Source: Pleurostoma richardsiae (taxonomy: Eukaryota; Ascomycota; Sordariomycetes; Calosphaeriales; Pleurostomataceae). From it: 64,000 nucleotides of DNA. This document shows positions 47,647-49,883 of this stretch, piece by piece (the stretch's first letter is position 1; every line of letters starts with the position of its first letter). The stretch covers positions 186,001 to 250,000 of the forward strand of contig JANBVO010000024.1 in assembly GCA_030052745.1 (NCBI GenBank). Reading direction: 5' to 3'. The notes below the pieces were generated by a model, which did no database searches, had not been told where the DNA came from, and saw only the letters and a list, made by a program, of their open reading frames with translations. The position numbers and the translations under genes are program-made.

Positions 47647-49172
47647 ATGTCGTGGAAGAAGTCTCAGAGGCTGATGGACACCATCCGGCACTATGCCAGC
47701 TTCCCCGCCACGGGTGTAAGCTTGAGGCAGATGGTGCAGTTTGGCGAGAGGCCATCAGTCGGTATGTTTATGCTCCCGAGCTCGTTTTATCTTCGGTTCC
47801 TCCCCGGGCTCTGACTCAATGCGTCCCCAACCAGGTACCCTGTTCCGAGCCTCACAGTTCCTCGCCGAGGAGCTTCCCATCCGCCTGGCGCATCGCGTCC
47901 AGGAGCTGGACACTTTGCCCGATGGTCTCAGTGAAATGCCCTCCGTCAGGAAGGTACAGGACTGGTACGCGCAGTCGTTCGAGGTATGGCAGCGCCCAAG
48001 CTCCATCTCTCTGCCGCTCCGCACGTGACTGACATCTGTGTCGAACAGGAGATCACCGCGCTCCCCCGGCCGCACCTCGACAAGACGACACGAGAGCGCT
48101 TGATGCGGCCAACCAAGTTCGGCGGAAAGGCCGCACAGCTCTCAGAAGCGACGCCCAACCCCAGCATCGAGGAGGGCCAGTACGCTTCATGGCCGCTCGC
48201 ACAGAATGGCAACGGGAACGGCTCAAGGAAGCCCTACGGTGCGAGGAGGTACTTCGCCATGGTCGACGACACGGGCGACTGGCCCCCTGAGCTGCAGCTG
48301 TACAACCGCGACTTTGCCAAGTGCCTGCACAAGATAAAGAGGAGGCACGACAGCGTCGTCACGACGATGGCGCAGGGCATCCTCGAGTATAAACGGAAGC
48401 GGCAGCGCATGCAGATCGACAACAACATCCAGTCCTTCCTGGACCGGTTCTACATGTCCCGGATAGGTATACGCATGTTGATAGGTCAGCATATCGCCCT
48501 CACCGACCAGAACCACTACCGGGACCCCACATACGTCGGCATCATCTGCACCAAGACCAACGTCAAGGACCTCGCCCAGGAGGCCATTGAGAACGCGCGG
48601 TTCGTGTGCGAGGACCACTACGGCATGTTCGAGGCCCCCAAGATCCAGCTCGTCTGCAATCCCCACCTCAACTTCATGTACGTGCCGGGCCACCTGTCGC
48701 ACATGCTCTTCGAGACCCTCAAGAACTCCCTGCGCGCCGTCGTCGAGACCCACGGCCAGGACAAGGAGGCCTTCCCCGTGACCAAGGTCATCGTCGCCGA
48801 GGGCAAGGAGGACATCACCATCAAGATCTCCGACGAGGGCGGCGGCATCCCGCGGAGTGCGATACCCCTGGTCTGGACTTACATGTACACCACTGTCGAC
48901 CGGACGCCTGACCTGGACCCTGACTTCGATAAGAGCGATTTCAAGGCGCCGATGGCTGGGTACGGCTACGGTCTTCCGCTGAGTAGACTCTACGCCAGGT
49001 ATTTCGGCGGTGACTTGAAGTTGATCAGCATGGAAGGGTACGTCACCTCTCTCCTCCTCTCTCCAGGCTCCATGAAAAGACCAGTTGAAATGCTGACCCT
49101 GTCCCTAGTTACGGAACGGACGTATATTTACATCTCAACCGGCTGTCCAGCTCGTCGGAGCCTCTGCAATAG
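47647..49172 (+). CDS. mitochondrial pyruvate dehydrogenase kinase (PDK/BCKDK family)
   Basis: Phosphorylates and switches off the pyruvate (or branched-chain) dehydrogenase complex in the mitochondrial matrix. Exons are 47647-47761, 47835-47983, 48049-49037 and 49109-49172, giving 438 residues to the first stop. Family blocks: QMVQFGERPSVGTLFRASQ, FLAEELPIRLAHRVQELD, then an insertion of about 65 residues (TPNPSIEEGQ to PPELQLYN), FLDRFYMSRIGIRMLIGQH, then GHKL ATPase boxes: N-box MLFETLKNSLRAVVE, G1 DEGGGI, and GYGYGLPLSRLYARYFGG. The C-terminus VYLHLNRLSSSSEPLQ is the normal fungal end. The UAG stop lies in a leaky context and the same frame continues for 62 codons (separate entry). Confidence 0.95.
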
Positions 49173-49178
49173 CAATTA
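49167..49178 (+). promoter_or_regulatory. candidate stop-codon readthrough site (CAA-UAG-CAA-UUA)
   Basis: The kinase frame reads CAA TAG CAA TTA across its stop (UAG at 49170-49172). The six bases after the stop fit the CARYYA consensus. CAA-UAG-CAA-UUA is the leaky-stop context described for tobamovirus replicase genes and shown to work in yeast. Sequence match is direct; function is inferred. Confidence 0.6.
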
Positions 49179-49361
49179 GCAGTCATGAGGGATGGCAAGA
49201 GGATGATATCCCGAGGATTGACGCTGGGTCTTAGCCACATGCGCAAGCGCCTGAAGGACCACGAGGTCAGCGAGCGGCGGCAGGTCGGCGACGCCGAGAA
49301 CCTGGTCAACCGGGGCGCCGCGGCCTCCGGGACCTTCAGGGACCGGGATAGCGAGCTGTAG
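49173..49361 (+). CDS. in-frame C-terminal extension of the kinase, reached only by readthrough
   Basis: After the UAG at 49170-49172 the same frame stays open for 62 codons and ends with TAG at 49359-49361. About 52 of 62 codons end in G or C, close to the annotated exons, while the other two forward frames contain several stops. The peptide starts QLAVMRDGKRMISRGLTLG, continues with a basic helix (SHMRKRLKDHEVSERRQ) and ends FRDRDSEL. It has no recognised domain, and the final SEL is not a standard peroxisomal signal. An ATG at 49185 could alternatively start a separate 58-residue ORF. It may also be plain 3' UTR. Confidence 0.45.
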   Translation, partial: QLAVMRDGKRMISRGLTLGLSHMRKRLKDHEVSERRQVGDAENLVNRGAAASGTFRDRDSEL

Positions 49362-49883
49362 TTCTCTTTTTCTTGTTCCTTGTTATTTTCCCGTATTTTT
49401 GGTTTTCTCATTTGGCATATTCGGAGGCGGCGCTTTGAGAGACGAACATCTCAGCTGTCACGTAAACTTGCCTGGCCGGGCTGGCTGGGTTCTTCTAGGT
49501 CCAGGACCCCGGGGCGGTATTATGTCTTCTGGAGCGGTGGTGGTATGCAAATGTTATGGCCGAGCATGATACCGATCTTGGTGACATAGTGACAATAGGT
49601 AAGGTAGTTAAAAAGGGGTGAGGCCCAGAGCGAGACGTCTCGCTGGGTCATCCGAGGATCTTCCCACGAGGTGAGGAAAGGGGAATGGGACGAAAATAGA
49701 ACGATTGAGGATATGCTCCCCTCGGGGTTTTTCTTATCTTAGGTGTTCTATGTGAATGACTTAACGGATTGTAGATTACTGTTACAATCTATAACGCCCG
49801 CCAAATGCATCGCCGCACCACCATGCTTGCTCTGCCCCCCCCCCCCCCCCCCGCCCCCCAACCGTCCAAGACAGTCTAGTCCA
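49362..49883. other. convergent region with poly-C tract
   Basis: About 520 bases between the kinase and sphingosine-1-phosphate lyase genes. It includes an 18-base C run. No gene recognised. Confidence 0.55.
49835..49852. repeat. 18-base poly-C homopolymer
   Basis: An uninterrupted run of 18 C followed by GCCCCCC. It lies about 32 bases 3' of the lyase stop codon. On the lyase transcript it would be a poly-G tract. Length is likely to be error-prone or polymorphic. Confidence 0.85.

Follow-up and report, generated by a model that had tools for sequence, protein, structure and literature searches.

Readthrough promoted by the nucleotides that follow a stop codon has a context best known from plant viruses: in tobacco mosaic virus (TMV) as well as in S. 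cerevisiae, a CAATTA hexamer placed after the stop is reported to make ribosomes read through it (PMC3609751), and the type I consensus, UAG-CAR-YYA, is described as a short local context that is all that TMV readthrough requires (PMC3542737). Within the fungi, readthrough of UGA-CU(A) is reported to produce peroxisomal isoforms (PMC4207609), and stop codons can also be lost by mRNA editing, with stop-loss UAG editing reported in 323 genes of F. graminearum (PMC4817773) and 15 stop-loss events backed by peptides in S. macrospora (PMC6794485). Among the fungal pyruvate dehydrogenase kinases (PDKs), PkpC of A. nidulans is reported as the true ortholog of the human PDKs, and a PkpC::GFP fusion as cytoplasmic on glucose and as both cytoplasmic and mitochondrial on acetate (PMC6027865). 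The terms "C-termin" and "stop codon" have zero occurrences in the main text of that paper, the titles and opening portions of abstracts in the literature searched make no mention of a tail or stop bypass in a fungal PDK, and none of the eight papers found to combine readthrough, pyruvate dehydrogenase kinase and stop codon concerned fungi by title.

Here we analysed a 64,000-nucleotide stretch of fungal DNA (the window) that carries on its plus strand, as are the other features of this locus given below, a PDK coding sequence (47647..49169) separated by a UAG stop (49170..49172) from a 62-codon C-terminal tail in the kinase frame (49173..49358). In the sequence and its spliced translation, the last kinase codon is CAA (49167-49169), and TAG (49170-49172) and CAA TTA (49173-49178), a hexamer that fits CAR-YYA, follow it in one frame that stays open for 62 codons, until a second TAG (49359..49361). 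An earlier note on this DNA had described both a CAA-UAG-CAA-UUA context directly behind the spliced kinase and a 62-codon in-frame run to a second UAG, and both were recovered exactly (49167-49178 and 49173-49358). TMV also carries CAA before its stop. Compared with the type I readthrough of the TMV replicase (PMC3542737), the stop and hexamer are identical and an in-frame extension follows, whereas the present case is a putative one, in a nuclear metabolic kinase gene of a fungus. The resemblance to fungal UGA-CU(A) readthrough (PMC4207609) lies in the minor, C-terminally extended form of a metabolic enzyme likewise proposed here, but the window has UAG-CAA and a tail that ends in SEL. Stop-loss editing in Sordariomycetes (PMC4817773, PMC6794485) is also reported to combine a UAG with an extended C-terminus, whereas tails of the window type occur in addition in classes in which editing was not found.

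The kinase exons (47647-47761, 47835-47983, 48049-49037 and 49109-49169) give a spliced translation of 438 residues with the C-terminus ...GYGTDVYLHLNRLSSSSEPLQ, and the gene was identified from this translation, its domains, its PDB match and its identity to the public model P0001 outside the gap in that model. Matches to BCDHK_Adom3 (200.4 bits) and HATPase_c (44.2 bits, residues 302-428) both exceeded the Pfam cut-off, and the PDB search returned PDK3 as the best match (279 bits), with PDK2 at ~261 and BCKDK at 186 bits. Two other members of the family were found in the 39.4-Mb genome, and both matched BCKDK first (83 vs 73 bits for PDK in the first, a partial frame, and 201 vs 111 bits in the second), which leaves the window gene as the only one of the three in which mammalian PDKs outscore BCKDK. 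PkpC, by its description as a human-PDK ortholog, is likened to the window gene, which scores PDKs first, and the latter is taken as a putative PkpC-type kinase.

The stop context was also surveyed at larger scales. TAGCARYYA has three occurrences in the window, close to the chance expectation (mean 2.07), two of them lying in different frames within 16 bases of one another (49170-49185, starting at 49170 and 49177). Across the 39.4-Mb genome there are three copies of CAATAGCAATTA and six of the same pattern read backwards, and the two copies elsewhere in the genome have upstream in-frame open stretches of just 4 and 15 codons. A CAR-YYA was found behind the stop of none of 13 other strong, non-overlapping open frames of the window, some of whose ends are exon ends. 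The predicted RNA structure, unremarkable (z -0.23; further folds -0.39, 0.54 and -0.96), is a point against readthrough, although none is needed for type I.

GC content by codon position was.559/.404/.842 in the kinase,.635/.444/.841 in the tail (its own stop counted) and.413/.603/.492 in the 189 nt that follow the tail. In 200,000 first-order Markov simulations built from the tail, 20% were open over its length, a fraction of 2.5e-5 reached its codon-phase bias, and none were both open and as biased; among 100,000 random pieces of the window, coding ones included, 2.8% were both. Two other strong open frames in the window likewise have open runs behind them, of 70 and 109 codons. The length of the tail alone is ordinary, but its phase bias is not. 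The bias is supplied by codons 21-62 (.71/.45/.98, hence a GC3 of 0.98); codons 1-20 (.50/.45/.55) have a GC3 of 0.55, which is lower than in every 20-codon stretch of the kinase (minimum 0.60), and the last kinase exon has a GC3 of 0.65. Of all the results, this unevenness along the tail speaks most strongly against a simple account. The jump from 0.55 to 0.98 coincides with a CTTAG (stretch 49173-49234). An untranslated 3' stretch that merely happens to be open would fit the commonness of such runs in the window and the chance frequency of TAGCARYYA there, but it is set against a phase bias met at 2.5e-5 in simulation and the homologous tails that 40 of the 147 fetched relatives carry across four classes; we give this explanation almost no credence, and the tail is very probably genuine coding sequence.

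These relatives came from two protein searches, a first one ranked on the kinase plus the window tail and a second one that took tailed proteins as queries; the top 120 of 4,711 matches in the first and the top 120 of 5,527 in the second together gave 147 distinct fungal kinases. Homologous tails were present in 40 of them, while 102 end in EPLQ like the short form of the window kinase, an ending that is no proof that the DNA behind it is tail-free, and five show neither; the second search favours tails because its queries were tailed, the motif counts are skewed, since rows were selected with a pattern that 38 of the 40 tailed models match, and the first search alone (best 120 of 4,711) gave a less selected figure of 30 tailed, 85 EPLQ-ending and five neither. 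The tails share a core, EVSERRQVGDAE, with the pattern E[VI][ST]ER[RK]QVGDA[EQ], which motif counts and the tail alignment place in the window at 49263..49310 (EVSERRQVGDAENLVN), and upstream of it an [RQ]GL[TA] element occurs in 10 of 16 aligned tails, corresponding to SRGLT in the window (49209..49223). Residues near the stop are alike across distant groups (QLAVMRD, QLPVLRS, AVMRD, IMRD), and the linkers ahead of SRGLT differ in length without loss of frame, though conservation of the frame is over-counted because gene models are selected for being open.

Tails were found among the fetched annotated kinases in four fungal classes, the class having been looked up for five species: the Sordariomycetes (Pleurostoma, Colletotrichum, Neurospora, Fusarium, Trichoderma, Sporothrix and others), the Leotiomycetes (Sclerotinia, Pseudogymnoascus, Drepanopeziza, Lachnellula, Hyphodiscus), the Eurotiomycetes (Paecilomyces) and the Dothideomycetes (Aureobasidium, Curvularia, Pseudovirgaria). 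The coding-like character that the earlier note had ascribed to the extension is thereby borne out beyond what the window alone shows. At the protein level, as judged from gene models, conservation of the tail is firm, and what emerges is a hidden but conserved extension of the C-terminus, placed after a stop codon whose context is that of readthrough. The tail matched no Pfam family; when the tail region of P0001 served as a protein query, P0001 alone was recovered among 68 candidates, which is uninformative on rarity since relatives exist; and exact codon scans for GTDVYLHLNR gave no match in viral contigs or in a genome set without relatives of this genome. Four Dothideomycete tails (P0076, P0117, P0121 and P0122) end in WWR[NH]V-x-MEEG[MV], which is absent from the other aligned tails.

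The public gene models cross the stop in a variety of ways. P0001, the NCBI model from Pleurostoma richardsiae (Sordariomycetes, Calosphaeriales), is identical to the window kinase plus tail at 484 of 484 residues, and it lacks 17 codons, the first stop included, as if these were removed by a 51-nt intron running from the GT at 49122 to the AG of the stop (49122..49172); the tail is present, and what is absent is VYLHLNRLSSSSEPLQ, 16 conserved residues, plus the stop. P0001 and several other public fungal PDK models without the same stretch or more are probably wrong. The 40 tailed models depart from the usual C-terminus at ten different places: GTD in 17, MEG in 11, MEGY in three, perhaps by way of the MEG donor, and seven others shared by nine models. 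The place of the join varies even within genera (three in Colletotrichum, two in Fusarium, three in Aureobasidium), as a real conserved splice should not, and such variation would be expected of gene finders forced to bridge a stop; the ten places suggest annotation artefacts around a stop bypass. Where the 17 GTD joins resume, the protein models read Q in eight, GP in three and residues further on in six (five Sporothrix and one Drepanopeziza). The eight Q-resuming models belong to Pleurostoma, five Fusarium, Ophiocordyceps and the Dothideomycete Pseudovirgaria, or about four independent lineages, and their next residue is L or S in every case, which is what UAG-CAR-YYA predicts provided that the acceptor is the stop itself. 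The three GP-resuming models are all from Colletotrichum and may depart from CAR-YYA. The Fusarium models P0112, P0118 and P0140 continue into unrelated downstream sequence with a shared ...IFERGGKR/LFERGGKR..., a further sign of unstable annotation at the 3' end of the kinase.

The tail could be joined to the kinase by readthrough, by splicing or by editing. We infer readthrough, rather than splicing or editing, as the joining route, and hold it somewhat more probable than the reverse, on the strength of the exact CAA-UAG-CAA-UUA, the rarity of the phase bias, the homologous tails, the varied joins and the Q followed by L or S; against it stand codons 1-20, which lack the GC3 bias that begins at a possible splice acceptor, and the three Colletotrichum GP joins with their possible break in CAR-YYA. 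That acceptor is a CTTAG with a branch-like TTGAC upstream (AG at 49233..49234), and from it, or from homologous sites, alternative splicing would attach the tail so as to replace or follow the normal C-terminus, starting at the exon-3 donor (49038) or at weak donors in the last exon. The pairs 49038/49234 (197 nt), 49145/49234 (90 nt) and 49154/49234 (81 nt) are all GT-AG and in frame, the GC3 jump falls at the acceptor, in Colletotrichum P0016, P0020 and P0028 the join connects MEG to the corresponding position, and another 11 models also have their join at MEG, three of which, from Cordyceps and Beauveria, share an identical join. Use of the strong donor at 49038, however, would remove the end of the HATPase_c match (302-428), the remaining donors (GTCCAG and GTCGGA) are poor by the consensus, and no junction is conserved among the 40 models, their ten join places being predictions and not transcripts. 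The peptide motifs A[VI]MRD and SRGLT, which lie upstream of the acceptor, are moreover common to several classes, with the proviso that the GLT codons could alternatively be a branch point. Alternative splicing is a serious rival to readthrough, and we nevertheless regard it as unlikely.

A-to-I editing of UAG to UGG, by which an edited mRNA in fruiting bodies would be translated into the tail, could be active on this stop in Sordariomycetes, where stop-loss events are reported to be common in Fusarium and also to occur in Sordaria (PMC4817773, PMC6794485). The adenosine of the UAG sits in a predicted hairpin loop, the preferred site of such editing, but that hairpin is no stronger than those of shuffled sequences (z -0.39). 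According to a review, searches across the genomes of A. nidulans and B. cinerea found no such editing (PMC11156358), and the tail is present in the classes of both; editing sites are also described as mostly not conserved among S. macrospora, F. graminearum and P. confluens (PMC5381528), and editing leaves CAR-YYA unexplained. We consider it improbable as the source of the tail. The readthrough proposed in the earlier note fares well in its exact context, in a hexamer reported as active in yeast (PMC3609751) and in the conserved extension, but in-frame splicing or UAG editing could also join the tail.

Under readthrough, the gene would yield two forms of a human-PDK-type kinase. Most ribosomes would halt at the UAG (49170-49172) and release the 438-residue enzyme, and a minority would decode it as sense owing to CAA-UAG-CAA-UUA, adding the conserved, basic 62-residue tail (13 K/R, 9 D/E) to what would be the minor form. 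The tail may alter which partners the enzyme binds or where it resides, possibly in analogy to the mammalian PDK C-terminal arm; the PDK3 chain 1y8n continues for 41 residues beyond the end of the kinase match, and the mammalian C-terminal tail begins about where that of the window begins. A profile of tailed proteins searched against PDB gave a match that stops before the mammalian tail, with no similarity to that stretch, and homology between the two was accordingly dropped as a candidate. The earlier note had put the tail beside the ATP-lid region; the structure predicted for P0076, the one model made, was poor, with a mean pLDDT of 55.3, with 29-40 in blocks after residue 440, where the tail was modelled without confidence. 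Peroxisomal targeting of the long form was likewise dropped, as neither the SEL of the window nor the tail ends of its relatives (EL, EV, QL, DL and the like) resemble a PTS1 signal.

The cell may thus make two versions of an enzyme from this kinase gene. If so, a central metabolic kinase of fungi would have a stop bypass of ancient conservation, in a context best known from plant viruses, and the gene would be a candidate isoform switch for a kinase type reported to relocate with carbon source in A. nidulans; gene predictors would then be able to mask stop bypasses through invented introns. The kinase stop offers a concrete, cheap test case for the frequency of functional readthrough in fungi. 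A broader reading, which we offer tentatively and consider rather doubtful, is that one UAG kept leaky in four classes of filamentous ascomycetes would act as a programmed switch between two human-PDK-type isoforms, the long one regaining a C-terminal arm as in mammalian PDKs and possibly directing the enzyme to different compartments or partners depending on carbon source; the same UAG might be edited to UGG in Sordariomycete fruiting bodies, and public models would hide the switch behind invented introns.

Between the kinase gene and the minus-strand open frame downstream of it lies a run of C (49835-49859) made up of 18 C, one G and six C.
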